Shown here: piece by piece, positions 13,495 to 56,184 of the stretch
Layout: each line of letters starts with the position of its first letter
How positions within the stretch are numbered: position 1 is the first letter of the stretch
Assembly: GCA_002104985.1 (NCBI GenBank)
Contig: MCGO01000002.1
Coordinates: 868,001-932,000, forward strand
DNA: 64,000 nucleotides
Source: Rhizoclosmatium globosum
Taxonomy: Eukaryota > Chytridiomycota > Chytridiomycetes > Chytridiales > Chytriomycetaceae
Direction: 5' to 3'
Notes under the pieces: model-generated
Database searches by the model: none
What the model saw: the letters and a program-made list of their open reading frames with translations, nothing else
Told to the model about the DNA's origin: nothing
Translations under genes and position numbers: made by a program

Positions 13495-15561
13495 TCCAGA
13501 ATCCAAATCCAAATGACTGATTTTGTAGAGACTGATTTGTTTCTGTTGACTAGAGAAAAACGTTTGGATAATTGGCAATGTACGGCCTGTACTTGAAGAG
13601 AGTGGCTCAGCCACTCTGTTCCATCATTGTCCCAAAGACATTACACCACCAACTCACTCACACTTTCTGGCTTCAACAACACCAAAGCACATGTTGCAAA
13701 ACTGGCAGGCGTCTTCATTGATGTTTCCCCATGTAACGTGGTAAAAAATGGTTTCAGCCAAAAGCAGCTTAGGCACAGTCGATTCTATCCAGAATCCAAA
13801 TCCAAATGACTGATTTTGTAGATACTGATTTGTTTCTGTTGACTAGAGAAAAACGTTTGGATAATTGGCAATGTACGGCCTGTACTTGAAGAGAGTGGCT
13901 CAGCCACTCTGTTCCATCATTGTCCCAAAAGACATTACACCACCAACTCACTCACACTTTCTGGCTTCAACAACACCAAAGCACATGTTGCAAAACTGGC
14001 AGGCGTCTTCATTGATGTTTCCCATGTAACGTGGTAAAAAATGGTTTCAGCCAAAAGCAGCTTAGGCACAGTCGATTCTATCCAGAATCCAAATCCAAAT
14101 GACTGATTTTGTAGATACTGATTTGTTTCTGTTGACTAGAGAAAAACGTTTGGATAATTGGCAATGTACGGCCTGTACTTGAAGAGAGTGGCTCAGCCAC
14201 TCTGTTCCATCATTGTCCCAAAAGACATTACACCACCAACTCACTCACACTTTCTGGCTTCAACAACACCAAAGCACATGTTGCAAAACTGGCAGGCGTC
14301 TTCATTGATGTTTCCCCATGTAACGTGGTAAAAAATGGTTTCAGCCAAAAGCAGCTTAGGCACAGTCGATTCTATCCAGAATCCAAATCCAAATGACTGA
14401 TTTTGTAGAGACTGATTTGTTTCTGTTGACTAGAGAAAAACGTTTGGATAATTGGCAATGTACGGCCTGTACTTGAAGAGAGTGGCTCAGCCACTCTGTT
14501 CCATCATTGTCCCAAAAGACATTACACCACCAACTCACTCACACTTTCTGGCTTCAACAACACCAAAGCACATGTTGCAAAACTGGCAGGCGTCTTCATT
14601 GATGTTTCCCCATGTAACGTGGTAAAAAATGGTTTCAGCCAAAAGCAGCTTAGGCACAGTCGATTCTATCCAGAATCCAAATCCAAATGACTGATTTTGT
14701 AGAGACTGATTTGTTTCTGTTGACTAGAGAAAAACGTTTGGATAATTGGCAATGTACGGCCTGTACTTGAAGAGAGTGGCTCAGCCACTCTGTTCCATCA
14801 TTGTCCCAAAAGACATTACACCACCAACTCACTCACACTTTCTGGCTTCAACAACACCAAAGCACATGTTGCAAAACTGGCAGGCGTCTTCATTGATGTT
14901 TCCCCATGTAACGTGGTAAAAAATGGTTTCAGCCAAAAGCAGCTTAGGCACAGTCGATTCTATCCAGAATCCAAATCCAAATGACTGATTTTGTAGAGAC
15001 TGATTTGTTTCTGTTGACTAGAGAAAAACGTTTGGATAATTGGCAATGTACGGCCTGTACTGAAGAGAGTGGCTCAGCCACTCTGTTCCATCATTGTCCC
15101 AAAAGACATTACACCACCAACTCACTCACACTTTCTGGCTTCAACAACACCAAAGCACATGTTGCAAAACTGGCAGGCGTCTTCATTGATGTTTCCCCAT
15201 GTAACGTGGTAAAAAATGGTTTCAGCCAAAAGCAGCTTAGGCACAGTCGATTCTATCCAGAATCCAAATCCAAATGACTGATTTTGTAGAGACTGATTTG
15301 TTTCTGTTGACTAGAGAAAGACGTTTGGATAATTGGCAATGTACGGCCTGTACTTGAAGAGAGTGGCTCAGCCACTCTGTTCCATCATTGTCCCAAAAGA
15401 CATTACACCACCAACTCACTCACACTTTCTGGCTTCAACAACACCAAAGCACATGTTGCAAAACTGGCAGGCGTCTTCATTGATGTTTCCCCATGTAACG
15501 TGGTAAAAAATGGTTTCAGCCAAAAGCAGCTTAGGCACAGTCGATTCTATCCAGAATCCAA
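13495..15561. repeat. 294-bp satellite array, left block (about 7 units)
   Basis: Head-to-tail units repeat with a 293-294 bp period. A landmark is the perfect 7-bp stem with 3-nt loop GAGTGGCTCAGCCACTC in each unit. Units here are the A variant (catgtaacgtgg and cagtcgattc), with a few single-base differences such as a G/T change in gtagaGact. The last unit is cut at CCAGAATCCAA by the LTR element. A 60-codon minus frame recurs in every unit only because 294 is divisible by three. Confidence 0.97.
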
Positions 15562-16264
15562 TGTGACCGGGATACCGGCTCGGCCGTCGCCAAGCACGTC
15601 AGGTTGTCCATGTCCGACGTAACGGTACCTAGCACGTAGTCAATAGTATCTCACTCATACATAAAAAGGAAAACGTCACCTTATCACCGATCCCCTCATC
15701 TCGGATGCGCCAGTGGAAGTCACCTCCTTCCCACAGTCCGTCCAGTAGGTCCAAGCCCACATTACAGCGAATCCCTGTCGCAAGCCGTCCTGTTCGCATC
15801 CGCAGTCGATCACTGTCCTCGGTCCACATCCACCGAACCCGTCCAGTGATCCCGGTTGATCGTTGATCAGCTCCTATTCCCGTAGCGCGGGTCTGGGTAG
15901 GTGGGAAACCATCCAGCTTTGAAACCCGTACTAACCCTCCTGTCCTTACATGCCTGCAGTCATGGTGCCTCCTTCCATCCCTTACAGGAGGTCAACCGAC
16001 GCTCAGGCTAGACACTACGCTCGAAAGGGGGAGAAACGTACCTAGGCCACCTCGCTCAAGTATGTCGGGTGGCGTCCCGTCCTGTTCCAGACGCCCTCCA
16101 CCAACGAAGCCCGTTCGCACGCTGCTTTGTTCACAAGGTAGTTTCTATTTTTTACATTTTCCCCCCTTCCGGTGCTTTCTCACACAGCCACCGGATAATA
16201 AACAAATAAATAAAGAAAGAATAAAAGAGAAGTCCGCAACCCTCCCTCCGTCAGATCCCTGACA
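15562..16264 (-). repeat. 3' LTR (703 bp)
   Basis: On the minus strand it starts TGTCAGGGATC and ends CCCGGTCACA, so it has the TG...CA ends of an LTR. The same terminal CGGTCACA recurs at 22642-22649 directly before the primer-binding site. This identifies the LTR boundary even though no full second LTR remains. The left edge abuts satellite sequence. Confidence 0.75.
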
Positions 16265-16554: not shown

Positions 16555-17520
16555 CTACTTGCGGGTAGCCTCATCCTCTTTTTGATTCCTCTTAAGTAAT
16601 CTTAAAGCTCTTTGTTCAGCGGCGTCAGTAACTACAGGCGGTTGGATAATCTTTTCTACTGGTTTGGCTTTTGCCTTTCTTTTCTGCTGTTGGACTTCAG
16701 TTGAAGTTGTGTCAATCTCAAGTGGTATTGCTAAGTCACCACTAACTTTCTCAGACATTCGCTCTTTCATCTTTTTGTTATTCTTCCATAAAGGCCTTAC
16801 TTTCTTTTATTCTGTTCCCAGAAGTCACTTATAACTTCCGAGGCATATCCTCTTCTCGTTGCCAATGGCGTTCCTTTCGTCCCCACATCTCCCAACTGGT
16901 GAGATACTCAAAGGAGGTTGGATTGACAGTCTTTTTAAATCTAAGATTTTATCATAATTAATTTTGGGTTATCGATGTCTTCTTGACTAAAAGTAGGGTC
17001 AATCTTTGCAAGTAGCCAAGGGCTTGCGCCAGATGCATATTGTTGTTTGTGAGTGGGTCTTCTTGTTAGCTTCTCATCGTCTAACCATTTCTTGTACTCA
17101 GTCTCAAAGTCATCACCTGCTAATTTCATGGCATCTTCTGCACTGTCAACAGGTACTCGCGCTGTAATGGTCTGAGTCGACTAGCATGCACTGTTCTAAC
17201 AACAATTTGGTTGCCAGGGAATCGTTCAACGACTCTATATTTTGTTTGAGCATCCCCTTCCGCTCGGTCAACAATTCTAACGGGTCCAACCCATCGTGGA
17301 ATAAACTTCTTTCCAACTTTAAGGCGTTGCGCTTCGGCAGTAAGGGGAACCGCCAACCAGGCACGTTCTCCTACTCTAATTCATGAGAAGGGTCAACAGT
17401 ACTATTTGTTTGGGTTGCATACTTTTCTTGTTCTTTATTAACATTATCTATAATGACAGATCTAGAAGCTTGTAGGCCTCTTACTAATCTCTCAGTAATG
17501 ATTTGATGTCTTCTGGTGAG
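16555..17520 (-). pseudogene. integrase C-terminal region (GPY/F-like) and tail
   Basis: The sequence reads from RRHQIITERLVRGLQAS through a charged helix to KVGKKFIPRWVGPVRIVDRA and VVRTVHASRLRPL. The KFIPRWVGPVRIV part matches the GPY/F module that follows the integrase core in Ty3/gypsy elements and binds DNA. A lysine-rich tail (MKLAGDDFETEYKKW, then KAKAKPVEKIIQPPVV) follows and ends at 16555. I see no chromodomain. Frame changes at about 17130 and 17370 break it. Confidence 0.65.
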
Positions 17521-18300
17521 TTTCACCAACCACTGCTACATCATCAAAGTCACTGTCCATCTCGTTCACTAAAGTAATGGGGGTTTCATCATTTGTGGGT
17601 TCAAAGTCATTAATTATGAAAGTTTGGATAGGAGCTTCGTCAAATAAGAAGGATTCACCAACTGTAAAGAATTGAGTGGCTCCATCCCACAAAGGGACAC
17701 CTCTCACTACAACAAAGTCTTTAGTAGTTGCATCAACTAAAGGTATGATGTAGTCCACATATGTTCTAGTGGTAAAGTTATAGGCCGGTACATACAGCGT
17801 AAATACCTGGTGTTCCAAGAACAGCTGAGGTTCAGGGTTATCTTCAGGGAGACTATCAGGTAAGTTGTTTCCTATTTGTATTAAGTTCTTTCGGGAGAAG
17901 ACATTTATTATTCTTTTTGCAGGTTTGTTTTCAAGTACAGTTCTAACTTTGCCATCCGCTGTTGCCGCTCCAATGCGGAAGTTCCCAATTCTTGGGATAT
18001 CTGTCCCGTCTTCTAATTTAAAAGTATATGAACTGGGTAGTCTGTTCGGTAATCTTGTTTTGGGTGTAAGTTGTGGATGAGGACTATTGCATCTAAGTTG
18101 TATTTTTCAAAGAGTTTCCTCAATACACGCTGTGGGTTATATTCTGTTTGGTATCCATAAAGATGTTTGGATAGTTTACTTTGAATAAACTGTCGAAAGG
18201 ATCGGTAGGACCGATAGCTATTTAGGGAGTTTTTCCGGAAATGGTTCTTCAACAGTTTCTTGGGAAGTCATAATGAGTGTTCTGGGGTGGGGTCAAGAGA
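17521..18300 (-). pseudogene. unrecognised insert between integrase core and C-terminal module
   Basis: About 250 residues lie here. They include YGYQTEYNPQRVLRKLFEKY, DAIVLIHNLHPKQDYRTDYP, DGTDIPRIGNFRIGAATADG, YVPAYNFTTRTYVDYIIPLV and PLWDGATQFFTVGESFLFDE. The open frames run in the element's orientation and join both flanks apart from one frame change near 18050. Ty3/gypsy integrases normally have a short linker here. The composition is that of a folded domain, but I do not recognise it. Confidence 0.5.
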
Positions 18301-18310
18301 AGTTGGTTTT

Positions 18311-19530
18311 TCAGTAAGGTCTGCTCACAGTCAGGTAGGACTTTTTCAATGTCAATGGGGTTAATTCCAGAAGTAAGTCAGAAGGTAATCGAGCGTCAAA
18401 TCCATGGAACATAAAGAATGGTGTTTCTCCTGTAGTACCATGGGCATGAGTTCTATACGCAAATAAAACATAAGGGAGTATGGTTTCCCAATCATCAAAA
18501 GTGTATTTATTAATGTAATGTCTTATTCGCTCTGACAAGTTTTTGATAAGTCGCTCGACCATCCCATTTGCTCTGGGCCAGTAGGGACTGGTGAACGTCT
18601 TATAAAATCCAAATCTCCTGGAGAGTTGCAACATAAGATTGCTGTTAAAGGGTTCTCCACCGTCAGAATGTAAGTAAACAGGGACGCCGGTATGGCAGAA
18701 TACTTTCTCTACTAACGCCTCAGCGACTGTTTTGGCTTTAAGGTCCGGTATTGGGATGGCTTCTGCCCATTTAGTGAAAGAGTCAACAACAACCATGATG
18801 TATTTGTTACCTGTTTTCTCATCTGGTTTTGGTGGTTGCATAAAGTCAACAAACACTCTTTCCCAAGGGTGTTTTCCAATTGGAATTGGAAAGACATATC
18901 CAGCTTTTTGTCGGAAATCTTTGGCAGTATTACATTCAGGACAAGATTTTATTTCATTTTCTAATTGTTCTTTACTGTTGGCCACCAATAGCGGTCAAGG
19001 AGGGGTGTGTAAACTTTCTCAAACCCATAATGTCCAGCAAATAGGTCTGAGTGGAGGAGATCCAGGATTTCTCGTCGCATGTTGTCTGGTACACATAACG
19101 TCACGCGCGCTGGTTGCTTTCGAACTTGTTGTTTTGAGGCGTTATGGATTTTGAAAAGGAGTCCATTGCTGTCAACGATGAGGTCCTTTGACAATGCAAT
19201 TAGGTTATCTTTTGTTAAAGTTGTTTCACCCTCCTTTGGTTCAGGTACTGTACCATACTGGCGAAATCTTAAAAGTGGGCCAAAGTGGGTATCGGCGAGT
19301 TGAAGTTCGCGGATTTCCTTAACTGTTTTACCTGAATTCGGTAATGTTATGTTAAGATTTGTTTCAAAGTTATCAATGTTTACATCTGAACAGAAGGTAT
19401 AGTATTGAGGATTCTCTTTATTTGTCCATGATGTTCTGTCAATCAAAATCGATTTATCATTTCCGTGGAAAGTTGTGTGTAACTGCAGGGCGACGTGGTC
19501 GCTTTCCCATTTTCTTGAGTCGATCCTCAC
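18311..19530 (-). pseudogene. integrase: H2C2 zinc-binding region and DDE catalytic core
   Basis: The first part (19530-18961) continues from the nuclease domain. It carries the zinc-binding approach REILDLLHSDLFAGHYGFEK, followed by YTPLLDRYWWPTVKNN and, after a frame change, KSCPECNTAKD. The core reads WERVFVDFMQPP (first Asp), VPVYLHSDGGEPFNS (second Asp), and YWPRANGMVERLIKNLSERI (the Glu). It ends DARLPSDLLLELTPL. This DDE enzyme inserts the cDNA into the genome. The catalytic triad is present; the reading frame is not intact. Confidence 0.85.
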
Positions 19531-20405
19531 GTCGAAGTGTTTCTTATCAATCCTATTGTCTATAAGTATGTGTCAACTCTCCAAAAAGGGTATACTTTAT
19601 TATCATATGCTTTTAAAAGCCAAGTAGAGCCATGAGGTTCTGGGTGTTTTACTCGAAAGCCGTCGTGGAAGTGTTCAGTCATTGATTTGAACCAAATTTG
19701 TTCTTCGGCGCTGATAGTCGAACCGAAACAATCCACCAAGTTTTCTTCGACGGCAAACGGCATCACATCTTTCTCCGAATCTGGGGCAATGTTTAAGTCG
19801 CCCATAAGCAGAACAAAGTGTTTCTTACGTAGGTGTAGGCAGTGTCGTTTTAATTTTTCAAGGAAGTTTATTTTAAATAGATGTCTTTTCTCATCTCTAT
19901 TCCCACTTGGTGCGTAACAATTGACAATAGCAAAGTCGCCGAGTGTAATGGTAAGGATACGACCCTCCGGGTCAGCCTCGTCCATCGCACCATACGAGTG
20001 AATCTCGCCTTTCAAGTCCTTTCTCCATAGAGTGGCTACTCCGTAATGTCCCGAAAGGTTGTCGCTTATAGCGCAACTCCAATTTGGAAGGGTTTGCATT
20101 TGTGAGAGGAGTTTTGTGGACTTGCGTCCCAGTCGCGTCTCTTGAAAACATATGACACTTCCTCCTAACATGTCTAAGTATTGTTCCATAATTGTAGCCT
20201 CGGTCTGTTCTTCATTTATTTCGGTATTACTCTTCTTCCAAGCGGTGTATGAATTACTAAAACCATTTAGATTCTGAGACGTGAAGTTCAGACTTGGGCA
20301 TCGCGTTCCTTCGAGTGGTTCGCGGTTTTTCTTATAGGCCTCGAGAGATGGGATCTTTTTATTGACAGCGCGTAGTGGTCGTTCTTCTTTTGTAGTTTCT
20401 TCCAT
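19455..20405 (-). pseudogene. ExoIII/APE-type (EEP) nuclease domain embedded in pol
   Basis: About 310 residues carry the complete ordered motif set of the endonuclease/exonuclease/phosphatase fold. Counting from Met at 20405: FTSQNLNGFS (Asn45), VICFQETRLG (Glu89), IVNCYAPSGN (Tyr164), LLMGDLNIAPD (Asp203, Asn205), FWRVDTYL (Asp278), and after one missing base at about 19558, WESDHVAL (Asp-His). The GDLNIAP and SGHYGVATLW segments resemble ExoIII/APN2 repair enzymes. The domain is continuous with RNase H upstream (overlapping frame, -1 offset at about 20400) and with the integrase region downstream. It is labelled a pseudogene only because of the frame breaks. Known LTR elements normally lack such a domain, which is typical of non-LTR elements. 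Confidence 0.82.
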
Positions 20406-20499: not shown

Positions 20500-21712
20500 G
20501 AACCAATGTTGTTGGTTCTGTCTGAGTACCAACGTTCTCAAATTCTTTTTCTTTTCGTCCTAAATATACTCTTGATAGAGTATCGGCGACAATTTGCGTG
20601 TCGCCGGGGACATGGACCAGTGTCAAGTCGTAATGCGAAAGGGCATAGGCCCATCTTGAGAACCGTCCTGTAAGTGCTCCATTTTTGAAAAGGCTTAATA
20701 AGGCGCTATGATCAGTTTCGACAGTCGCCGGTTGGTTGAAGATATATCGATCGAAACATGTTACTGCCCATATCACCGCGAGCCCTTCGCGATCTGTATT
20801 CGAGTAACGTTTTTTCGACGTCTGTAAGTGTTCTGGATATAAATGCGACCGGTTTACGGTCAGTTTTCTTGTTTGATTCTCCTTGAATAAAGAGGGCTCC
20901 GCCGAGTCCCGTGCCGGACGCATCGCACTCAATCACTAGTTTATCACCTTCTTTTGGAATTGTCATAAGCGAATCCTTACAAAGTTCGCGTATAAGTGTA
21001 TCGAAGGCGTGTTGACACCAAGGGTCCCAAATAAACTTTACACCGTCTTTTATTAAATTATAAAGAGGTGCTGATATATTAGCAAAATCTTTAATAAAAC
21101 GTCGGAAGTATTGCGCGAACCCTAAGAATCGTTGCATTTTGGGGACGCTCGTTGGCCGTTCCCAATTTCGTAGGTCCTGCATCTTACTTGGATCTTTTCT
21201 GAGGCCGTCCTCGGAGATTACATGTCCTAAGAAAGGGAGTGAAGTATGGAAGAGTTTACATTTACTTGGTTTCAATTTCAAGTTGAACTGTTCGAGTCTT
21301 CAGCTCTTCTAAATGTTTGAAGTGTTCGTCAACTGAATCACTAAACACTATAATATCATCAACGTAAACGGTAAATACCCATTTAAAACCAAAAAGGACT
21401 CGATTTGCACGTTGGGATGTTGGGAGTGCGTTAATCAATCCGAAAGGCGTAGCTTAAGTCTTCAGTGATGGGGATTTGTCAAACCACCGAGAGTTACCAC
21501 AATGTGGTCTTTAAGCATTGCTGTCCTTCCTAAACCTTCAAAAAGGGGAATCTTCGCACCTGGGTTGAATTTAATTTCATGTGGTGGTAGTCTTTCTGTA
21601 CCAGTCACGATGCCTTTGCGGAAGACATTCGCGAAGCTTCGTATCATAGCGTCCATTCGAGCGAGAACATTGTCACCAAAAGTTCTAGAAATATGGGAGT
21701 GTGGAATCTATT
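20500..21712 (-). pseudogene. reverse transcriptase and RNase H
   Basis: The RT N-terminus has LPPHEIKFNPGAKIPLFEGL. After missing sequence come TPFGLINALPTSQRANRV and FTVYVDDIIVFSDSVDEHF, with the catalytic YVDD encoded at 21355-21366. The thumb/connection reads SKCKLFHTSLPFLGHVISED and MQRFLGFAQYFRRFIKDFA. RNase H reads KLVIECDASGTGLGGALF, NTDREGLAVIWAVTCFDRY, VETDHSALLSLF and VPGDTQIVADTLSRVY. The RT stretch between NPGAKIP and TPFGL, which should include the first catalytic Asp, is missing. Frame changes occur near 21445, 21280 and 20790. This copy cannot encode active RT as it stands. Confidence 0.88.
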
Positions 21713-22620
21713 CCCAGATTTCATCGTCCGTCAATGTACTTGCCGGCGGTAGATAATTGAGATGATCTTCCCGACTCTTATCTTTTGTTGGTATAGAGTT
21801 CATGATGAGATTAGAATTGTGGTCTTCGCCTATTTCAGTTGTAGACGTCGAAGATCAACGGTGTTCGGGGTGATTTCGATCGATAAAGTAGTGAATAGAT
21901 TTTATCAAAGTTTGGGACTTTGGCTTGTTCGCAGATCGACAGTGTTGACCAATTCGATTCATTCGAGATTAAGCTACAACAGTCGTCATCAAATTCTTCG
22001 GCGGCGTCGATAGTCGGTGTTTTGAAGTAAAGGGCCGTTTCTGGATAGTCAGTTTTTTTTTATTCAAGAAATAATAGGTAAGATGTGAAAGAAAGGGAAG
22101 AAGAGAGGACTGGTGTTCTTCTGGCTGGTCAGAATATTCCGACGTACCCAAAAATTTCATTTGTCGTTTTCTTCCTTCACATCCTTGTCAACCAGGCAAG
22201 GCTCAAGTGATTCATATTCGTAAAATAAAGAGTTTATTTGATTCGTAAAGTGTAAAAGGTATTAGGGTAGGTGAGGGGAGTTGGAATAAGCCTGCTCCTT
22301 CCATCCTCCAGTCACTACAGTCTTGTGTTTGTTACACTACTGAATCGTTTCGGAATCGATTTCGAAGTGTATGGTGCTGTATTTGTAGTTGTTGTTGTTG
22401 TAGTTGCTGGCGATCCTCGATGATTAGTCATCTATTTGTCAGTGTCATTACGACACCATAGTTTCATCATTTATAAAGGTAGGCCGGAGCCCTGTATAGA
22501 GGCGGAGTAAACTCAACGCAGTGCGGAGCTAAGCTCAACGCTATAAACAATCATCTCGACGGCCCAAAGGCCGGAGGAATAAGACCAGCGATCGACGGAC
22601 CAATCGTCTCGCTACACTCG
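21713..22620 (-). other. element leader region lacking recognisable gag or protease
   Basis: This region lies between the PBS and RT. I find no CCHC zinc knuckle and no DTG/DSG aspartic-protease motif. Only about 0.9 kb is present, too short for gag plus protease. The stretch DDEIWE and SHISRTFGDNVLARMDAMIR near 21740-21640 leads into RT. Confidence 0.5.
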
Positions 22621-22622
22621 CA

Positions 22623-22649
22623 TTTGGTGTTGGGCCCCCACTGTGACCG
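22623..22649 (-). other. primer-binding site and 8-bp 5' LTR remnant
   Basis: On the minus strand, CGGTCACA (identical to the 3' LTR end) is followed by one G and then TGGGGGCCCAACACCAAA. The TGG start directly after an LTR end is typical of a tRNA-primed PBS. Which tRNA is used cannot be decided from the sequence. Satellite resumes immediately to the right, so the rest of the 5' LTR is absent. Confidence 0.55.
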
Positions 22650-25600
22650 CCAAAAGACATTACACCACCAACTCACTCACACTTTCTGGCTTCAACAACA
22701 CCAAAGCACATGTTGCAAAACTGGCAGGCGTCTTCATTGATGTTTCCCCATGTAACGTGGTAAAAATGGTTTCAGCCAAAAGCAGCTTAGGCACAGTCGA
22801 TTCTATCCAGAATCCAAATCCAAATGACTGATTTTGTAGATACTGATTTGTTTCTGTTGATTAGAGAAAAACGTTTGGATAATTGGCAATGTACGGCCTG
22901 TACTTGAAGAGAGTGGCTCAGCCACTCTGTTCCATCATTGTCCCAAAAGACATTACACCACCAACTCACTCACACTTTCTGGCTTCAACAACACCAAAGC
23001 ACATGTTGCAAAACTGGCAGGCGTCTTCATTGATGTTTCCCCATGTAACGTGGTAAAAAATGGTTTCAGCCAAAAGCAGCTTAGGCACAGTCGATTCTAT
23101 CCAGAATCCAAATCCAAATGACTGATTTTGTAGAGACTGATTTGTTTCTGTTGACTAGAGAAAAACGTTTGGATAATTGGCAATGTACGGCCTGTACTTG
23201 AAGAGAGTGGCTCAGCCACTCTGTTCCATCATTGTCCCAAAAGACATTACACCACCAACTCACTCACACTTTCTGGCTTCAACAACACCAAAGCACATGT
23301 TGCAAAACTGGCAGGCGTCTTCATTGATGTTTCCCCATGTAACGTGGTAAAAAATGGTTTCAGCCAAAAGCAGCTTAGGCACAGTCGATTCTATCCAGAA
23401 TCCAAATCCAAATGACTGATTTTGTAGAGACTGATTTGTTTCTGTTGACTAGAGAAAAACGTTTGGATAATTGGCAATGTACGGCCTGTACTTGAAGAGA
23501 GTGGCTCAGCCACTCTGTTCCATCATTGTCCCAAAAGACATTACACCACCAACTCACTCACACTTTCTGGCTTCAACAACACCAAAGCACATGTTGCAAA
23601 ACTGGCAGGCGTCTTCATTGATGTTTCCCCATGTACGTGGTAAAAAATGGTTTCAGCCAAAAGCAGCTTAGGCACAGTCGATTCTATCCAGAATCCAAAT
23701 CCAAATGACTGATTTTGTAGAGACTGATTTGTTTCTGTTGACTAGAGAAAAACGTTTGGATAATTGGCAATGTACGGCCTGTACTTGAAGAGAGTGGCTC
23801 AGCCACTCTGTTCCATCATTGTCCCAAAAGACATTACACCACCAACTCACTCACACTTTCTGGCTTCAACAACACCAAAGCACATGTTGCAAAACTGGCA
23901 GGCGTCTTCATTGATGTTTCCCCATGTAACGTGGTAAAAAATGGTTTCAGCCAAAAGCAGCTTAGGCACAGTCGATTCTATCCAGAATCCAAATCCAAAT
24001 GACTGATTTTGTAGAGACTGATTTGTTTCTGTTGACTAGAGAAAAACGTTTGGATAATTGGCAATGTACGGCCTGTACTTGAAGAGAGTGGCTCAGCCAC
24101 TCTGTTCCATCATTGTCCCAAAAGACATTACACCACCAACTCACTCACACTTTCTGGCTTCAACAACACCAAAGCACATGTTGCAAAACTGGCAGGCGTC
24201 TTCATTGATGTTTCCCCATGTAACGTGGTAAAAAATGGTTTCAGCCAAAAGCAGCTTAGGCACAGTCGATTCTATCCAGAATCCAAATCCAAATGACTGA
24301 TTTTGTAGAGACTGATTTGTTTCTGTTGACTAGAGAAAAACGTTTGGATAATTGGCAATGTACGGCCTGTACTTGAAGAGAGTGGCTCAGCCACTCTGTT
24401 CCATCATTGTCCCAAAAGACATTACACCACCAACTCACTCACACTTTCTGGCTTCAACAACACCAAAGCACATGTTGCAAAACTGGCAGGCGTCTTCATT
24501 GATGTTTCCCCATGTAACGTGGTAAAAAATGGTTTCAGCCAAAAGCAGCTTAGGCACAGTCGATTCTATCCAGAATCCAAATCCAAATGACTGATTTTGT
24601 AGAGACTGATTTGTTTCTGTTGACTAGAGAAAAACGTTTGGATAATTGGCAATGTACGGCCTGTACTTGAAGAGAGTGGCTCAGCCACTCTGTTCCATCA
24701 TTGTCCCAAAAGACATTACACCACCAACTCACTCACACTTTCTGGCTTCAACAACACCAAAGCACATGTTGCAAAACTGGCAGGCGTCTTCATTGATGTT
24801 TCCCCATGTTACGTGGTAAAAAATGGTTTCAGCCAAAAGCAGCTTAGGCACAGTCATTCTATCCAGAATCCAAATCCAAATGACTGATTTTGTAGAGACT
24901 GATTTGTTTCTGTTGACTAGAGAAAAACGTTTGGATAATTGGCAATGTACGGCCTGTACTTGAAGAGAGTGGCTCAGCCACTCTGTTCCATCATTGTCCC
25001 AAAAGACATTACACCACCAACTCACTCACACTTTCTGGCTTCAACAACACCAAAGCACATGTTGCAAAACTGGCAGGCGTCTTCATTGATGTTTCCCCAT
25101 GTACGTGGTAAAAAATGGTTTCAGCCAAAAGCAGCTTAGGCACAGTCGATTCTATCCAGAATCCAAATCCAAATGACTGATTTTGTAGAGACTGATTTGT
25201 TTCTGTTGACTAGAGAAAAACGTTTGGATAATTGGCAATGTACGGCCTGTACTTGAAGAGAGTGGCTCAGCCACTCTGTTCCATCATTGTCCCAAAAGAC
25301 ATTACACCACCAACTCACTCACACTTTCTGGCTTCAACAACACCAAAGCACATGTTGCAAAACTGGCAGGCGTCTTCATTGATGTTTCCCCATGTTACGT
25401 GGTAAAAAATGGTTTCAGCCAAAAGCAGCTTAGGCACAGTCAATTCTATCCAGAATCCAAATCCAAATGACTGATTTTGTAGAGACTGATTTGTTTCTGT
25501 TGACTAGAGAAAAACGTTTGGATAATTGGCAATGTACGGCCTGTACTTGAAGAGAGTGGCTCAGCCACTCTGTTCCATCATTGTCCCAAAAGACATTACA

Positions 25601-28600
25601 CCACCAACTCACTCACACTTTCTGGCTTCAACAACACCAAAGCACATGTTGCAAAACTGGCAGGCGTCTTCATTGATGTTTCCCCATGTTACGTGGTAAA
25701 AAATGGTTTCAGCCAAAAGCAGCTTAGGCACAGTCATTCTATCCAGAATCCAAATCCAAATGACTGATTTTGTAGAGACTGATTTGTTTCTGTTGACTAG
25801 AGAAAAACGTTTGGATAATTGGCAATGTACGGCCTGTACTTGAAGAGAGTGGCTCAGCCACTCTGTTCCATCATTGTCCCAAAAGACATTACACCACCAA
25901 CTCACTCACACTTTCTGGCTTCAACAACACCAAAGCACATGTTGCAAAACTGGCAGGCGTCTTCATTGATGTTTCCCCATGTTACGTGGTAAAAAATGGT
26001 TTCAGCCAAAAGCAGCTTAGGCACAGTCAATTCTATCCAGAATCCAAATCCAAATGACTGATTTTGTAGAGACTGATTTGTTTCTGTTGACTAGAGAAAA
26101 ACGTTTGGATAATTGGCAATGTACGGCCTGTACTTGAAGAGAGTGGCTCAGCCACTCTGTTCCATCATTGTCCCAAAAGACATTACACCACCAACTCACT
26201 CACACTTTCTGGCTTCAACAACACCAAAGCACATGTTGCAAAACTGGCAGGCGTCTTCATTGATGTTTCCCCATGTTACGTGGTAAAAAATGGTTTCAGC
26301 CAAAAGCAGCTTAGGCACAGTCAATTCTATCCAGAATCCAAATCCAAATGACTGATTTTGTAGAGACTGATTTGTTTCTGTTGACTAGAGAAAAACGTTT
26401 GGATAATTGGCAATGTACGGCCTGTACTTGAAGAGAGTGGCTCAGCCACTCTGTTCCATCATTGTCCCAAAAGACATTACACCACCAACTCACTCACACT
26501 TTCTGGCTTCAACAACACCAAAGCACATGTTGCAAAACTGGCAGGCGTCTTCATTGATGTTTCCCCATGTTACGTGGTAAAAAATGGTTTCAGCCAAAAG
26601 CAGCTTAGGCACAGTCAATTCTATCCAGAATCCAAATCCAAATGACTGATTTTGTAGAGACTGATTTGTTTCTGTTGACTAGAGAAAAACGTTTGGATAA
26701 TTGGCAATGTACGGCCTGTACTTGAAGAGAGTGGCTCAGCCACTCTGTTCCATCATTGTCCCAAAAGACATTACACCACCAACTCACTCACACTTTCTGG
26801 CTTCAACAACACCAAAGCACATGTTGCAAAACTGGCAGGCGTCTTCATTGATGTTTCCCCATGTTACGTGGTAAAAAATGGTTTCAGCCAAAAGCAGCTT
26901 AGGCACAGTCAATTCTATCCAGAATCCAAATCCAAATGACTGATTTTGTAGAGACTGATTTGTTTCTGTTGACTAGAGAAAAACGTTTGGATAATTGGCA
27001 ATGTACGGCCTGTACTTGAAGAGAGTGGCTCAGCCACTCTGTTCCATCATTGTCCCAAAAGACATTACACCACCAACTCACTCACACTTTCTGGCTTCAA
27101 CAACACCAAAGCACATGTTGCAAAACTGGCAGGCGTCTTCATTGATGTTTCCCCATGTTACGTGGTAAAAAATGGTTTCAGCCAAAAGCAGCTTAGGCAC
27201 AGTCAATTCTATCCAGAATCCAAATCCAAATGACTGATTTTGTAGAGACTGATTTGTTTCTGTTGACTAGAGAAAAACGTTTGGATAATTGGCAATGTAC
27301 GGCCTGTACTTGAAGAGAGTGGCTCAGCCACTCTGTTCCATCATTGTCCCAAAAGACATTACACCACCAACTCACTCACACTTTCTGGCTTCAACAACAC
27401 CAAAGCACATGTTGCAAAACTGGCAGGCGTCTTCATTGATGTTTCCCCATGTTACGTGGTAAAAAATGGTTTCAGCCAAAAGCAGCTTAGGCACAGTCAA
27501 TTCTATCCAGAATCCAAATCCAAATGACTGATTTTGTAGAGACTGATTTGTTTCTGTTGACTAGAGAAAAACGTTTGGATAATTGGCAATGTACGGCCTG
27601 TACTTGAAGAGAGTGGCTCAGCCACTCTGTTCCATCATTGTCCCAAAAGACATTACACCACCAACTCACTCACACTTTCTGGCTTCAACAACACCAAAGC
27701 ACATGTTGCAAAACTGGCAGGCGTCTTCATTGATGTTTCCCCATGTTACGTGGTAAAAAATGGTTTCAGCCAAAAGCAGCTTAGGCACAGTCAATTCTAT
27801 CCAGAATCCAAATCCAAATGACTGATTTTGTAGAGACTGATTTGTTTCTGTTGACTAGAGAAAAACGTTTGGATAATTGGCAATGTACGGCCTGTACTTG
27901 AAGAGAGTGGCTCAGCCACTCTGTTCCATCATTGTCCCAAAAGACATTACACCACCAACTCACTCACACTTTCTGGCTTCAACAACACCAAAGCACATGT
28001 TGCAAAACTGGCAGGCGTCTTCATTGATGTTTCCCCATGTTACGTGGTAAAAAATGGTTTCAGCCAAAAGCAGCTTAGGCACAGTCAATTCTATCCAGAA
28101 TCCAAATCCAAATGACTGATTTTGTAGAGACTGATTTGTTTCTGTTGACTAGAGAAAAACGTTTGGATAATTGGCAATGTACGGCCTGTACTTGAAGAGA
28201 GTGGCTCAGCCACTCTGTTCCATCATTGTCCCAAAAGACATTACACCACCAACTCACTCACACTTTCTGGCTTCAACAACACCAAAGCACATGTTGCAAA
28301 ACTGGCAGGCGTCTTCATTGATGTTTCCCCATGTTACGTGGTAAAAAATGGTTTCAGCCAAAAGCAGCTTAGGCACAGTCAATTCTATCCAGAATCCAAA
28401 TCCAAATGACTGATTTTGTAGAGACTGATTTGTTTCTGTTGACTAGAGAAAAACGTTTGGATAATTGGCAATGTACGGCCTGTACTTGAAGAGAGTGGCT
28501 CAGCCACTCTGTTCCATCATTGTCCCAAAAGACATTACACCACCAACTCACTCACACTTTCTGGCTTCAACAACACCAAAGCACATGTTGCAAAACTGGC

Positions 28601-31600
28601 AGGCGTCTTCATTGATGTTTCCCCATGTTACGTGGTAAAAAATGGTTTCAGCCAAAAGCAGCTTAGGCACAGTCAATTCTATCCAGAATCCAAATCCAAA
28701 TGACTGATTTTGTAGAGACTGATTTGTTTCTGTTGACTAGAGAAAAACGTTTGGATAATTGGCAATGTACGGCCTGTACTTGAAGAGAGTGGCTCAGCCA
28801 CTCTGTTCCATCATTGTCCCAAAAGACATTACACCACCAACTCACTCACACTTTCTGGCTTCAACAACACCAAAGCACATGTTGCAAAACTGGCAGGCGT
28901 CTTCATTGATGTTTCCCCATGTTACGTGGTAAAAAATGGTTTCAGCCAAAAGCAGCTTAGGCACAGTCAATTCTATCCAGAATCCAAATCCAAATGACTG
29001 ATTTTGTAGAGACTGATTTGTTTCTGTTGACTAGAGAAAAACGTTTGGATAATTGGCAATGTACGGCCTGTACTTGAAGAGAGTGGCTCAGCCACTCTGT
29101 TCCATCATTGTCCCAAAAGACATTACACCACCAACTCACTCACACTTTCTGGCTTCAACAACACCAAAGCACATGTTGCAAAACTGGCAGGCGTCTTCAT
29201 TGATGTTTCCCCATGTTACGTGGTAAAAAATGGTTTCAGCCAAAAGCAGCTTAGGCACAGTCAATTCTATCCAGAATCCAAATCCAAATGACTGATTTTG
29301 TAGAGACTGATTTGTTTCTGTTGACTAGAGAAAAACGTTTGGATAATTGGCAATGTACGGCCTGTACTTGAAGAGAGTGGCTCAGCCACTCTGTTCCATC
29401 ATTGTCCCAAAAGACATTACACCACCAACTCACTCACACTTTCTGGCTTCAACAACACCAAAGCACATGTTGCAAAACTGGCAGGCGTCTTCATTGATGT
29501 TTCCCCATGTTACGTGGTAAAAAATGGTTTCAGCCAAAAGCAGCTTAGGCACAGTCAATTCTATCCAGAATCCAAATCCAAATGACTGATTTTGTAGAGA
29601 CTGATTTGTTTCTGTTGACTAGAGAAAAACGTTTGGATAATTGGCAATGTACGGCCTGTACTTGAAGAGAGTGGCTCAGCCACTCTGTTCCATCATTGTC
29701 CCAAAAGACATTACACCACCAACTCACTCACACTTTCTGGCTTCAACAACACCAAAGCACATGTTGCAAAACTGGCAGGCGTCTTCATTGATGTTTCCCC
29801 ATGTTACGTGGTAAAAAATGGTTTCAGCCAAAAGCAGCTTAGGCACAGTCAATTCTATCCAGAATCCAAATCCAAATGACTGATTTTGTAGAGACTGATT
29901 TGTTTCTGTTGACTAGAGAAAAACGTTTGGATAATTGGCAATGTACGGCCTGTACTTGAAGAGAGTGGCTCAGCCACTCTGTTCCATCATTGTCCCAAAA
30001 GACATTACACCACCAACTCACTCACACTTTCTGGCTTCAACAACACCAAAGCACATGTTGCAAAACTGGCAGGCGTCTTCATTGATGTTTCCCCATGTTA
30101 CGTGGTAAAAAATGGTTTCAGCCAAAAGCAGCTTAGGCACAGTCAATTCTATCCAGAATCCAAATCCAAATGACTGATTTTGTAGAGACTGATTTGTTTC
30201 TGTTGACTAGAGAAAAACGTTTGGATAATTGGCAATGTACGGCCTGTACTTGAAGAGAGTGGCTCAGCCACTCTGTTCCATCATTGTCCCAAAAGACATT
30301 ACACCACCAACTCACTCACACTTTCTGGCTTCAACAACACCAAAGCACATGTTGCAAAACTGGCAGGCGTCTTCATTGATGTTTCCCCATGTTACGTGGT
30401 AAAAAATGGTTTCAGCCAAAAGCAGCTTAGGCACAGTCAATTCTATCCAGAATCCAAATCCAAATGACTGATTTTGTAGAGACTGATTTGTTTCTGTTGA
30501 CTAGAGAAAAACGTTTGGATAATTGGCAATGTACGGCCTGTACTTGAAGAGAGTGGCTCAGCCACTCTGTTCCATCATTGTCCCAAAAGACATTACACCA
30601 CCAACTCACTCACACTTTCTGGCTTCAACAACACCAAAGCACATGTTGCAAAACTGGCAGGCGTCTTCATTGATGTTTCCCCATGTTACGTGGTAAAAAA
30701 TGGTTTCAGCCAAAAGCAGCTTAGGCACAGTCAATTCTATCCAGAATCCAAATCCAAATGACTGATTTTGTAGAGACTGATTTGTTTCTGTTGACTAGAG
30801 AAAAACGTTTGGATAATTGGCAATGTACGGCCTGTACTTGAAGAGAGTGGCTCAGCCACTCTGTTCCATCATTGTCCCAAAAGACATTACACCACCAACT
30901 CACTCACACTTTCTGGCTTCAACAACACCAAAGCACATGTTGCAAAACTGGCAGGCGTCTTCATTGATGTTTCCCCATGTTACGTGGTAAAAAATGGTTT
31001 CAGCCAAAAGCAGCTTAGGCACAGTCAATTCTATCCAGAATCCAAATCCAAATGACTGATTTTGTAGAGACTGATTTGTTTCTGTTGACTAGAGAAAAAC
31101 GTTTGGATAATTGGCAATGTACGGCCTGTACTTGAAGAGAGTGGCTCAGCCACTCTGTTCCATCATTGTCCCAAAAGACATTACACCACCAACTCACTCA
31201 CACTTTCTGGCTTCAACAACACCAAAGCACATGTTGCAAAACTGGCAGGCGTCTTCATTGATGTTTCCCCATGTTACGTGGTAAAAAATGGTTTCAGCCA
31301 AAAGCAGCTTAGGCACAGTCAATTCTATCCAGAATCCAAATCCAAATGACTGATTTTGTAGAGACTGATTTGTTTCTGTTGACTAGAGAAAAACGTTTGG
31401 ATAATTGGCAATGTACGGCCTGTACTTGAAGAGAGTGGCTCAGCCACTCTGTTCCATCATTGTCCCAAAAGACATTACACCACCAACTCACTCACACTTT
31501 CTGGCTTCAACAACACCAAAGCACATGTTGCAAAACTGGCAGGCGTCTTCATTGATGTTTCCCCATGTTACGTGGTAAAAAATGGTTTCAGCCAAAAGCA

Positions 31601-34600
31601 GCTTAGGCACAGTCAATTCTATCCAGAATCCAAATCCAAATGACTGATTTTGTAGAGACTGATTTGTTTCTGTTGACTAGAGAAAAACGTTTGGATAATT
31701 GGCAATGTACGGCCTGTACTTGAAGAGAGTGGCTCAGCCACTCTGTTCCATCATTGTCCCAAAAGACATTACACCACCAACTCACTCACACTTTCTGGCT
31801 TCAACAACACCAAAGCACATGTTGCAAAACTGGCAGGCGTCTTCATTGATGTTTCCCCATGTTACGTGGTAAAAAATGGTTTCAGCCAAAAGCAGCTTAG
31901 GCACAGTCAATTCTATCCAGAATCCAAATCCAAATGACTGATTTTGTAGAGACTGATTTGTTTCTGTTGACTAGAGAAAAACGTTTGGATAATTGGCAAT
32001 GTACGGCCTGTACTTGAAGAGAGTGGCTCAGCCACTCTGTTCCATCATTGTCCCAAAAGACATTACACCACCAACTCACTCACACTTTCTGGCTTCAACA
32101 ACACCAAAGCACATGTTGCAAAACTGGCAGGCGTCTTCATTGATGTTTCCCCATGTTACGTGGTAAAAAATGGTTTCAGCCAAAAGCAGCTTAGGCACAG
32201 TCAATTCTATCCAGAATCCAAATCCAAATGACTGATTTTGTAGAGACTGATTTGTTTCTGTTGACTAGAGAAAAACGTTTGGATAATTGGCAATGTACGG
32301 CCTGTACTTGAAGAGAGTGGCTCAGCCACTCTGTTCCATCATTGTCCCAAAAGACATTACACCACCAACTCACTCACACTTTCTGGCTTCAACAACACCA
32401 AAGCACATGTTGCAAAACTGGCAGGCGTCTTCATTGATGTTTCCCCATGTTACGTGGTAAAAAATGGTTTCAGCCAAAAGCAGCTTAGGCACAGTCAATT
32501 CTATCCAGAATCCAAATCCAAATGACTGATTTTGTAGAGACTGATTTGTTTCTGTTGACTAGAGAAAAACGTTTGGATAATTGGCAATGTACGGCCTGTA
32601 CTTGAAGAGAGTGGCTCAGCCACTCTGTTCCATCATTGTCCCAAAAGACATTACACCACCAACTCACTCACACTTTCTGGCTTCAACAACACCAAAGCAC
32701 ATGTTGCAAAACTGGCAGGCGTCTTCATTGATGTTTCCCCATGTTACGTGGTAAAAAATGGTTTCAGCCAAAAGCAGCTTAGGCACAGTCAATTCTATCC
32801 AGAATCCAAATCCAAATGACTGATTTTGTAGAGACTGATTTGTTTCTGTTGACTAGAGAAAAACGTTTGGATAATTGGCAATGTACGGCCTGTACTTGAA
32901 GAGAGTGGCTCAGCCACTCTGTTCCATCATTGTCCCAAAAGACATTACACCACCAACTCACTCACACTTTCTGGCTTCAACAACACCAAAGCACATGTTG
33001 CAAAACTGGCAGGCGTCTTCATTGATGTTTCCCCATGTTACGTGGTAAAAAATGGTTTCAGCCAAAAGCAGCTTAGGCACAGTCAATTCTATCCAGAATC
33101 CAAATCCAAATGACTGATTTTGTAGAGACTGATTTGTTTCTGTTGACTAGAGAAAAACGTTTGGATAATTGGCAATGTACGGCCTGTACTTGAAGAGAGT
33201 GGCTCAGCCACTCTGTTCCATCATTGTCCCAAAAGACATTACACCACCAACTCACTCACACTTTCTGGCTTCAACAACACCAAAGCACATGTTGCAAAAC
33301 TGGCAGGCGTCTTCATTGATGTTTCCCCATGTTACGTGGTAAAAAATGGTTTCAGCCAAAAGCAGCTTAGGCACAGTCAATTCTATCCAGAATCCAAATC
33401 CAAATGACTGATTTTGTAGAGACTGATTTGTTTCTGTTGACTAGAGAAAAACGTTTGGATAATTGGCAATGTACGGCCTGTACTTGAAGAGAGTGGCTCA
33501 GCCACTCTGTTCCATCATTGTCCCAAAAGACATTACACCACCAACTCACTCACACTTTCTGGCTTCAACAACACCAAAGCACATGTTGCAAAACTGGCAG
33601 GCGTCTTCATTGATGTTTCCCCATGTTACGTGGTAAAAAATGGTTTCAGCCAAAAGCAGCTTAGGCACAGTCAATTCTATCCAGAATCCAAATCCAAATG
33701 ACTGATTTTGTAGAGACTGATTTGTTTCTGTTGACTAGAGAAAAACGTTTGGATAATTGGCAATGTACGGCCTGTACTTGAAGAGAGTGGCTCAGCCACT
33801 CTGTTCCATCATTGTCCCAAAAGACATTACACCACCAACTCACTCACACTTTCTGGCTTCAACAACACCAAAGCACATGTTGCAAAACTGGCAGGCGTCT
33901 TCATTGATGTTTCCCCATGTTACGTGGTAAAAAATGGTTTCAGCCAAAAGCAGCTTAGGCACAGTCAATTCTATCCAGAATCCAAATCCAAATGACTGAT
34001 TTTGTAGAGACTGATTTGTTTCTGTTGACTAGAGAAAAACGTTTGGATAATTGGCAATGTACGGCCTGTACTTGAAGAGAGTGGCTCAGCCACTCTGTTC
34101 CATCATTGTCCCAAAAGACATTACACCACCAACTCACTCACACTTTCTGGCTTCAACAACACCAAAGCACATGTTGCAAAACTGGCAGGCGTCTTCATTG
34201 ATGTTTCCCCATGTACGTGGTAAAAAATGGTTTCAGCCAAAAGCAGCTTAGGCACAGTCATTCTATCCAGAATCCAAATCCAAATGACTGATTTTGTAGA
34301 GACTGATTTGTTTCTGTTGACTAGAGAAAAACGTTTGGATAATTGGCAATGTACGGCCTGTACTTGAAGAGAGTGGCTCAGCCACTCTGTTCCATCATTG
34401 TCCCAAAAGACATTACACCACCAACTCACTCACACTTTCTGGCTTCAACAACACCAAAGCACATGTTGCAAAACTGGCAGGCGTCTTCATTGATGTTTCC
34501 CCATGTACGTGGTAAAAAATGGTTTCAGCCAAAAGCAGCTTAGGCACAGTCAATTCTATCCAGAATCCAAATCCAAATGACTGATTTTGTAGAGACTGAT

Positions 34601-36884
34601 TTGTTTCTGTTGACTAGAGAAAAACGTTTGGATAATTGGCAATGTACGGCCTGTACTTGAAGAGAGTGGCTCAGCCACTCTGTTCCATCATTGTCCCAAA
34701 AGACATTACACCACCAACTCACTCACACTTTCTGGCTTCAACAACACCAAAGCACATGTTGCAAAACTGGCAGGCGTCTTCATTGATGTTTCCCCATGTT
34801 ACGTGGTAAAAAATGGTTTCAGCCAAAAGCAGCTTAGGCACAGTCAATTCTATCCAGAATCCAAATCCAAATGACTGATTTTGTAGAGACTGATTTGTTT
34901 CTGTTGACTAGAGAAAAACGTTTGGATAATTGGCAATGTACGGCCTGTACTTGAAGAGAGTGGCTCAGCCACTCTGTTCCATCATTGTCCCAAAAGACAT
35001 TACACCACCAACTCACTCACACTTTCTGGCTTCAACAACACCAAAGCACATGTTGCAAAACTGGCAGGCGTCTTCATTGATGTTTCCCCATGTACGTGGT
35101 AAAAAATGGTTTCAGCCAAAAGCAGCTTAGGCACAGTCATTCTATCCAGAATCCAAATCCAAATGACTGATTTTGTAGAGACTGATTTGTTTCTGTTGAC
35201 TAGAGAAAAACGTTTGGATAATTGGCAATGTACGGCCTGTACTTGAAGAGAGTGGCTCAGCCACTCTGTTCCATCATTGTCCCAAAAGACATTACACCAC
35301 CAACTCACTCACACTTTCTGGCTTCAACAACACCAAAGCACATGTTGCAAAACTGGCAGGCGTCTTCATTGATGTTTCCCCATGTAACGTGGTAAAAAAT
35401 GGTTTCAGCCAAAAGCAGCTTAGGCACAGTCGATTCTATCCAGAATCCAAATCCAAATGACTGATTTTGTAGAGACTGATTTGTTTCTGTTGACTAGAGA
35501 AAAACTTTGGATAATTGGCAATGTACGGCCTGTACTTGAAGAGAGTGGCTCAGCCACTCTGTTCCATCATTGTCCCAAAAGACATTACACCACCAACTCA
35601 CTCACACTTTCTGGCTTCAACAACACCAAAGCACATGTTGCAAAACTGGCAGGCGTCTTCATTGATGTTTCCCCATGTACGTGGTAAAAAATGGTTTCAG
35701 CCAAAAGCAGCTTAGGCACAGTCATTCTATCCAGAATCCAAATCCAAATGACTGATTTTGTAGAGACTGATTTGTTTCTGTTGACTAGAGAAAAACGTTT
35801 GGATAATTGGCAATGTACGGCCTGTACTTGAAAGAGTGGCTCAGCCACTCTGTTCCATCATTGTCCCAAAAGACATTACACCACCAACTCACTCACACTT
35901 TCTGGCTTCAACAACACCAAAGCACATGTTGCAAAACTGGCAGGCGTCTTCATTGATGTTTCCCCATGTAACGTGGTAAAAAATGGTTTCAGCCAAAAGC
36001 AGCTTAGGCACAGTCGATTCTATCCAGAATCCAAATCCAAATGACTGATTTTGTAGAGACTGATTTGTTTCTGTTGACTAGAGAAAAACGTTTGGATAAT
36101 TGGCAATGTACGGCCTGTACTTGAAGAGAGTGGCTCAGCCACTCTGTTCCATCATTGTCCCAAAAGACATTACACCACCAACTCACTCACACTTTCTGGC
36201 TTCAACAACACCAAAGCACATGTTGCAAAACTGGCAGGCGTCTTCATTGATGTTTCCCCATGTACGTGGTAAAAAATGGTTTCAGCCAAAAGCAGCTTAG
36301 GCACAGTCGATTCTATCCAGAATCCAAATCCAAATGACTGATTTTGTAGAGACTGATTTGTTTCTGTTGACTAGAGAAAAACGTTTGGATAATTGGCAAT
36401 GTACGGCCTGTACTTGAAGAGAGTGGCTCAGCCACTCTGTTCCATCATTGTCCCAAAAGACATTACACCACCAACTCACTCACACTTTCTGGCTTCAACA
36501 ACACCAAAGCACATGTTGCAAAACTGGCAGGCGTCTTCATTGATGTTTCCCCATGTAACGTGGTAAAAAATGGTTTCAGCCAAAAGCAGCTTAGGCACAG
36601 TCGATTCTATCCAGAATCCAAATCCAAATGACTGATTTTGTAGATACTGATTTGTTTCTGTTGACTAGAGAAAAACGTTTGGATAATTGGCAATGTACGG
36701 CCTGTACTTGAAGAGAGTGGCTCAGCCACTCTGTTCCATCATTGTCCCAAAAGACATTACACCACCAACTCACTCACACTTTCTGGCTTCAACAACACCA
36801 AAGCACATGTTGCAAAACTGGCAGGCGTCTTCATTGATGTTTCCCCATGTAACGTGGTAAAAAATGGTTTCAGCCAAAAGCAGC
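22650..36884. repeat. 294-bp satellite array, right block (about 48 units)
   Basis: This is the same unit as the left block. Outer units are variant A (gtaacgtgg, cagtcgattc). A core from about 25,980 to 34,160 (about 28 units) is variant B (gttacgtgg, cagtcaattc), and its units look identical. Units in the transition zones carry gtacgtgg and/or cagtcattc, one base short exactly where A and B differ. Each unit has the GAGTGGCTCAGCCACTC hairpin. The array ends at CCAAAAGCAGC. Copy number is probably not exact, because identical units cannot be counted reliably by assembly. Confidence 0.97.
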
Positions 36885-50139: not shown

Positions 50140-50254
50140 TTCAACGTATGTCTTACGTGAATGTATATTACTCCATACTTCGCTGCTTCTTATACGTTCA
50201 AATTAAATACTTCTCCACATTTTCGCCACTATAAAATCGCTGATAAATCGCCAC

Positions 50255-52083: not shown

Positions 52084-52180
52084 TTTCCCCCCCTGTTTTG
52101 CCCATAAATGACAAGTGATGTTTATATTAATAATTAGCTTGTTGAGTGTCCCTTATTCAAGCATTTTTGAGTCCGCACAA

Positions 52181-54024: not shown

Positions 54025-54227
54025 AGATTTTATAGGATTTTTTTGTGTATTTGAAATAAACATTGATTAGAGTAATTCAAAGAAACCGAGGTAACCTCCC
54101 TCATTTCCTCGTCATCTGCACAAGCTTGATAAGGATGAATTTGCTCTTCTGCCATTAATCCATGATGGAAATGTCATCTATGACTTGTCATTGGGGCCCT
54201 TAAATTTCATAAGTCCGACATTCAAAA

Positions 54228-56078: not shown

Positions 56079-56184
56079 TTGATTTCGTGTCTCTAAATAA
56101 ACGTCTTGACTTGAAGTACGAAATCAAGTCCAAAAAAATTATTACTGTATTCCCTGACAATTCTTGACAGTTCGCGCCGACACG

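Follow-up and report, generated by a model that had tools for sequence, protein, structure and literature searches.

An ExoIII/APE-type nuclease domain in the pol of Ty3/gypsy-type LTR retrotransposons of the chytrid Rhizoclosmatium globosum

By the usual division, APE-type nucleases belong to non-LTR retrotransposons and integrases to LTR retrotransposons. The retrotransposon family encoding dual endonucleases of Kojima and Fujiwara 2005 (Dualen) is reportedly non-LTR; going by that title, it resembles the elements described here as a retroelement with two DNA-cutting enzymes, and differs from them in its non-LTR nature. APE-type LINEs carry an ExoIII/APE-type nuclease domain (EEP) and a reverse transcriptase (RT) within one protein, as the present elements do; unlike LINEs, the latter also have LTRs and an integrase, and their EEP profile is closer to cellular ExoIII than to the LINE nuclease. 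Transposase_22 and DUF1725 are LINE-1 parts. Exo_endo_phos_2 is counted among the domains of predicted camelid LTR elements, in the same table as Transposase_22 and DUF1725 (PMC8605555). Both EEP families stand among 'other' motif models in a further source (PMC6058741), the title of the 2005 paper appears in the reference list of another (PMC5348765), and a survey of fungal LTR elements puts the extra domains of some complex elements down to multiple insertions (PMC3248453).

The nearest precedent for an EEP in LTR elements is provided by the animal Kuafuorterviruses, LTR elements in which Exo_endo_phos is sporadic and may be host-derived (PMC11673190). In the elements described here, by contrast, the EEP is common in two clades. 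The RT motifs also differ, being IADD, VADD or LADD in Kuafuorterviruses as given there and Y[VI]DD or FVDD, FIDD and LQDD here, and the Kuafuorterviridae motif is absent from all 13 RT rows of our set, which is without C383, C397 and C257 (C-numbers name contigs or element families of the same genome, and L-numbers loci). Among the open-access papers listed by our searches, we found no report of a Ty3 element with an EEP. The remark of the first-pass annotation that it knew of no such Ty3/gypsy element has to be limited by the sporadic animal cases (PMC11673190).

We are virtually certain that an ExoIII/APE-type EEP is a standing part of the Ty3/gypsy-type pol in this genome, mostly between RNase H and integrase. 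The elements share with Ty3/gypsy (Metaviridae) their LTRs, RT, RNase H, integrase zinc-binding domain (H2C2) and DDE integrase in the same order, and differ from them in the ExoIII/APE-type domain, placed between RNase H and integrase or before RT, and in single frames of up to 3901 codons. In the window, the whole 64,000-nucleotide stretch of DNA analysed, a broken Ty3-type LTR element occupies the minus strand from 22649 to 15562. Pfam matches on that strand place its domains in the order RNase H, EEP, Integrase_H2C2 and rve, which bears out the earlier claim of a nuclease between RNase H and integrase on one strand.

Read in the direction of the element, the window copy begins with an untranslated part just inside the lost 5' LTR (22150..22649; 93% identity to C113 327772-328273), followed by remains of RT and RNase H that lack part of the RT (20670..21836, from blastn pieces against the C113 copy) and include an RT_RNaseH_2 or RNase H stretch in two frames (20720..21029, Pfam). 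The EEP, at about 19468..20297, was placed by motif positions in two frames; it matches Pfam Exo_endo_phos at 7.1e-9 (36.2 bits against a cut-off of 24.5), is 97% identical to the open-frame C113 copy, and its frame breaks near the 3' end of the domain. Of the motifs listed by the first-pass annotation, the placement between RNase H and integrase holds; RVDTYL spans the frame break, and its last letters are not domain sequence. Beyond the EEP lie H2C2 (18967..19092, Pfam 8.8e-10) and the integrase core (rve, 18578..18871, Pfam 1.4e-10), whose D,D,E was read in the C113 copy. A possible GPY/F-like or SH3-like module 3' of the integrase (17126..17380; SH3_Tf2-1 E 0.087, below the Pfam cut-off) is separated from the core by about 250 codons without a Pfam match (17492-18267), and the 3' LTR (15562..16264) is 97.6% identical to the C113 LTR.

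The insertion is flanked on either side by a 294-bp tandem array, of 7 copies at 13495..15561 and of 48.5 copies at 22650..36884, both with a 99% match. Another array, of approximately 135-bp units, lies near the C214 element (L038, C214:11650-20000). Elsewhere in the window, the plus strand at 50207-57880 carries a row of similar open frames resembling a tandem gene family, in which FALAIRTNLVSHDSGKTQRA recurs. The window copy has lost its 5' LTR, some 5 kb covering gag and upstream pol, and a portion of RT, and what remains is spread over several frames; its frame breaks are therefore decay. Unbroken copies of the same type of element are present elsewhere in the genome.

With the window EEP frame as query, we obtained 48 matches in the genome (57 Mb, 420 contigs), in open frames of up to 3901 codons. 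By Pfam, the domain order in open frames on C113, C114, C130 and C214 is RT, RNase H, EEP, H2C2, rve; the C114 and C130 EEPs, cut by the end of the analysed stretch and in part weakly scored there, are whole and above the cut-off in the genome-wide Pfam search. We merged 66 RT_RNaseH_2 matches into 62 loci and compared them with 60 H2C2 matches and an EEP set of 87 genome-wide Pfam matches plus two from the window-frame search. The search scores the best candidates only, so these locus counts are lower bounds, and the RT_RNaseH_2 list does not include C363, which has an EEP in an open frame.

An EEP lies beside 45 of the 62 RT_RNaseH_2 loci, in the order RT-EEP-INT at 38 and EEP-RT-INT at 7. 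The remaining 17 consist of 11 RT-INT loci and 6 with neither EEP nor H2C2. At those RT-EEP-INT loci whose EEP is a single match, the RT_RNaseH_2 and EEP centres are 776-1144 bp apart, and the distance between RT_RNaseH_2 and H2C2 centres is 1596-2012 bp at the 38 loci against 576-749 bp at the 11 RT-INT loci. The RT-EEP-INT order is far beyond chance, since it recurs at 38 loci, with the 776-1144 bp spacing wherever the EEP is a single match. These loci confirm the first-pass annotation, which placed the nuclease within a Ty3/gypsy-type LTR element's pol, and its contrary case, in which all relatives would lack the domain, is not what the genome holds. Intact elements with one uninterrupted frame, such as it proposed to look for in related fungi, were found in the same genome, where 23 of the 45 EEP-bearing loci have all three domains in a single open frame, judged by the same frame length; several of the 23 are near-identical copies and not independent cases. 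The recurrence of the arrangement on many contigs stands in for reads across the junctions.

Some loci depart from this pattern. At L044 (C146), L051/L052 (C368) and L053/L054 (C301) the EEP is ahead of RT and not after RNase H, and the RTs of these elements have LQDD, FVDD and FIDD instead of YxDD. Beside an intact LTR element, L024 (C384:147590-152500) is the broken remnant of a C130/C257-type element. We considered its EEP-less position C384:149700, with an RT very close to the C130 family, as a possible ancestral state. Its internal deletion, beginning within the EEP and taking out most of it, rules this out and marks the case as a loss; the position is still included in the 11 RT-INT loci. 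In the one LINE read in the same genome (L046), the EEP comes ahead of RT, and the part of the element that was read has no integrase.

The EEP-bearing elements are LTR retrotransposons, and recent ones. Fully read LTR pairs are 100% identical in C113 (709 bp), C384 (712), C363 (1898) and C416 (1037), and nearly so in C43 (1037 bp, 99.9%) and C13 (272 bp, 99.6%); pairs cut by the analysed stretch stand at 100% in C114 (625 bp) and C130 (209) and 97.4% in C298 (341). Target duplications of 4 bp, with ends set by eye, are clear at four of six sites (C113, C384, C416 and C13); C363 fits 4 or 5 bp, and C43 has none. The integrase keeps D,D,E in all six families read, with 35 or 36 residues from the second D to E, and its H2C2 is recognised by Pfam. 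Additionally, all five clade 1 families read retain the RNase H motifs CDAS, REGL and TDHxAL, and three of four clade 1 frames have a CCHC knuckle by Pfam. For the C130-family RT, the match to Ty3 Gag-Pol (chain 7q5b) reaches 3e-67, and clade 1 thus shows the RT-RNase H-integrase order with a Ty3-like RT. The clade 2 RT is more remote from Ty3, the best PDB match of C146 being a Gag-Pol chain at 7e-13, with 7q5b at 7e-9.

The nuclease retains its catalytic residues, as the first-pass annotation had proposed from a single copy. Each of N, N, E, Y, D, N, D and SDH, whose roles are assigned from ExoIII and APE1, is present in all ten rows of a ten-family alignment (A1), and C368 and C301 also hold them by eye, with TED for QET around the glutamate in C301. 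The tryptophan just before the RxD motif, which we take to line the AP pocket, is F or A in the four clade 2 rows, and the WNxNG motif has S for G in clade 2 rows. Against structures, the A1 profile gave its best matches, from 2e-47, to chains of the ExoIII and AP endonuclease group; human APE1 scored about 1e-36, the exonuclease III structure 1ako 1e-22 and AP endonuclease 2 5e-19, with the LINE-1 nuclease far behind at 2e-10. We also modelled the window's own frame, which is without the domain end, with AlphaFold2 (pLDDT 77.5, pTM 0.76); structural comparison of this model gave a best E of 5.9e-12 and TM of 0.54-0.72 among the 50 matches listed, all of them ExoIII homologues, AP endonucleases or Mth212; the alignment behind the model was built of ExoIII-like proteins, and the fold match is partly drawn from them. 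Profile and predicted fold point to ExoIII/APE1 rather than to the LINE nuclease. The domain shares its EEP fold, profile and catalytic residues with the ExoIII/APE1 (Xth) AP endonucleases and differs from them in being part of a retroelement polyprotein. A LINE origin is disfavoured by a profile far from the LINE type and by the very long branch of the LINE row in the EEP tree.

The element families are divided alike by their EEP and RT trees. In the RT tree (13 rows), a 100/100 branch separates clade 2 (C13, C146, C368 and C301) from the rest, and clade 1 (C113, C114, C416, C214, C130 and the EEP-deleted C384b) has 88/99. The EEP tree, with 13 element rows, one LINE and 41 standalone proteins (every third of 120 listed within the length range, plus two), recovers clade 1 with C257 at 100/97 and clade 2 with C383 and C397 at 100/100. 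Within clade 2, C13, C383 and C397 have the EEP after RNase H, and C146, C368 and C301 have it ahead of RT. The latter three are grouped by the RT tree (96/94) and not by the EEP tree; therefore, the EEP changed place or was shuffled. A test of a single origin for both clades gave AU p values of 0.081 for the EEP and 0.356 for the EEP-bearing RTs, and the trees are compatible with one uptake of the domain or two.

Relatives elsewhere were sought among proteins and viral contigs. The A1 profile had 291 protein matches, many of those listed being named exodeoxyribonuclease III. A partial protein of Rhizoclosmatium sp. JEL0117 (P0110) shares 96% identity with the C397 family across 107 residues, and a 349-aa EEP protein of Irineochytrium annulatum (P0008) had no RT or integrase match. 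No fused EEP-element protein was found among 1409 candidates of a word-sharing search; in a second, of the best 7999 candidates by shared words, three passed and none had the full set of EEP and RT or integrase, both searches detecting only relatives with short words in common. Two of the three are Lytechinus pictus proteins without an EEP domain in the Pfam list, and the third, from Megalops atlanticus, bears the name of an AP-site enzyme and has neither RT nor integrase. Of 43 pattern matches on viral contigs, a single one codes for a relative: the ExoIII-like gene of an IMG/VR contig.

Between families, dN/dS was saturated (pS 0.70-0.99) and we give raw pN/pS. For the clade 1 pairs C416/C214 and C416/C114, pN/pS was 0.13 and 0.31 in the EEP, 0.09 and 0.29 in the RT end with RNase H, and 0.07 and 0.26 in the integrase, with 0.24 and 0.67 in the linker before the EEP and 0.17 and 0.59 in that after it. 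C130/C257 gave 0.21 in the EEP, 0.33 in the linker before it and 0.14 in 20 aligned codons after it. In clade 2, C383/C397 gave 0.39 for both EEP and RT, 0.36 for the integrase, 0.34 for a short linker before the EEP and 0.61 for that after it, with no contrast between the EEP and its preceding linker. Set against its linkers, the EEP thus stands out clearly in the clade 1 pair at greater distance, less so in the closer pairs, and inconsistently in clade 2. From these codon comparisons, selection in clade 1 appears to keep the EEP nearly like RT and integrase. Near copies had dN/dS of 0.04 (C113/C384) and 0.09 (C113/C168); the window copy, with few changes, had 0.91 against C113 and 0.08 against C384.

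Target nicking, processing of cDNA ends and countering of host repair were named by the first-pass annotation as roles that the nuclease may have. We suggest that the EEP is an enzyme of cDNA repair and 3'-end cleaning, and put the probability of this explanation as a whole, anatomy included, at roughly 0.4. The integrase would still perform insertion, since its D,D,E is intact and 4-bp duplications accompany the copies. The EEP would act on new cDNA inside the particle, cutting abasic or damaged sites and cleaning 3' ends, such that the cDNA could be finished and joined; this step would be an element-carried form of base-excision repair, comparable to the dUTPases carried by some other retroelements. 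We favour this reading because the profile, predicted fold and residues are those of an AP endonuclease, and because a position in pol would bring the enzyme into the particle. Enzymes of the ExoIII/APE type can work as AP endonuclease, 3' exonuclease, 3' phosphodiesterase or RNase H; the sequence does not choose among these activities, and action on cDNA is a predicted activity. Counting against repair are the 17 of 62 loci without an EEP, the F or A that replaces the pocket tryptophan in clade 2 and the missing contrast there between the EEP and its preceding linker, and we know of no uracil or abasic-site stress of cDNA for these elements.

The chief alternatives are primer removal and target nicking. 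The same enzyme could instead serve reverse transcription, by removing the tRNA primer or RNA remnants or by exonuclease trimming of cDNA 3' ends, and not by abasic repair. ExoIII-type enzymes can act on RNA/DNA hybrids, and at 38 of the 45 loci with an EEP the domain comes after RNase H; however, the RNase H motifs kept in all five clade 1 families leave no evident gap to fill, and at 7 loci the EEP stands before RT, away from RNase H, making this role an unlikely one in our estimation. We consider it improbable that the EEP nicks or prepares the chromosomal target, so that two endonucleases, one like the LINE-type APE, would share the insertion. It belongs to the same superfamily as the LINE nucleases, and the window copy lies inside the 294-bp array and the C214 copy beside another, but adjacency to arrays concerns only these two copies, the EEP profile is far from the LINE type, the integrase D,D,E is kept, and the 4-bp duplications at four of six sites are as for integrase strand transfer. 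Retention of the EEP for binding DNA or a host partner would follow the example of non-catalytic EEP proteins such as Crc, itself among the A1 profile matches, yet catalytic residues that do not vary across the ten families of A1, and that C368 and C301 have as well, make a purely binding role hard to credit. We give next to no probability to nested insertion, an assembly join or chance as the source of the EEP: the joins of the window copy are broken, and the fungal survey cited above ascribes extra domains to multiple insertions (PMC3248453), but nested insertion and chance joining are ruled out by recurrence at 45 of 62 loci, by a shared frame at 23 and by 4-bp duplications at the LTR ends of copies, and the EEP and RT trees divide the families alike.

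Returning to cDNA repair and finishing, we tentatively propose a wider history, possible rather than probable, in which a radiation of LTR elements took a cellular repair nuclease into its replication as a selected third enzyme, possibly twice, moved it within pol and used it to repair or finish cDNA. In this genome, LTR elements of a successful group carry an APE-type nuclease together with an integrase, both apparently kept under selection. Thus, pol can absorb a third DNA-processing enzyme and hand it down, and limits on retroelement cDNA such as abasic sites and blocked 3' ends become testable. If the repair reading is true, these elements would carry their own base-excision-repair step, as a third enzyme beside RNase H and integrase.
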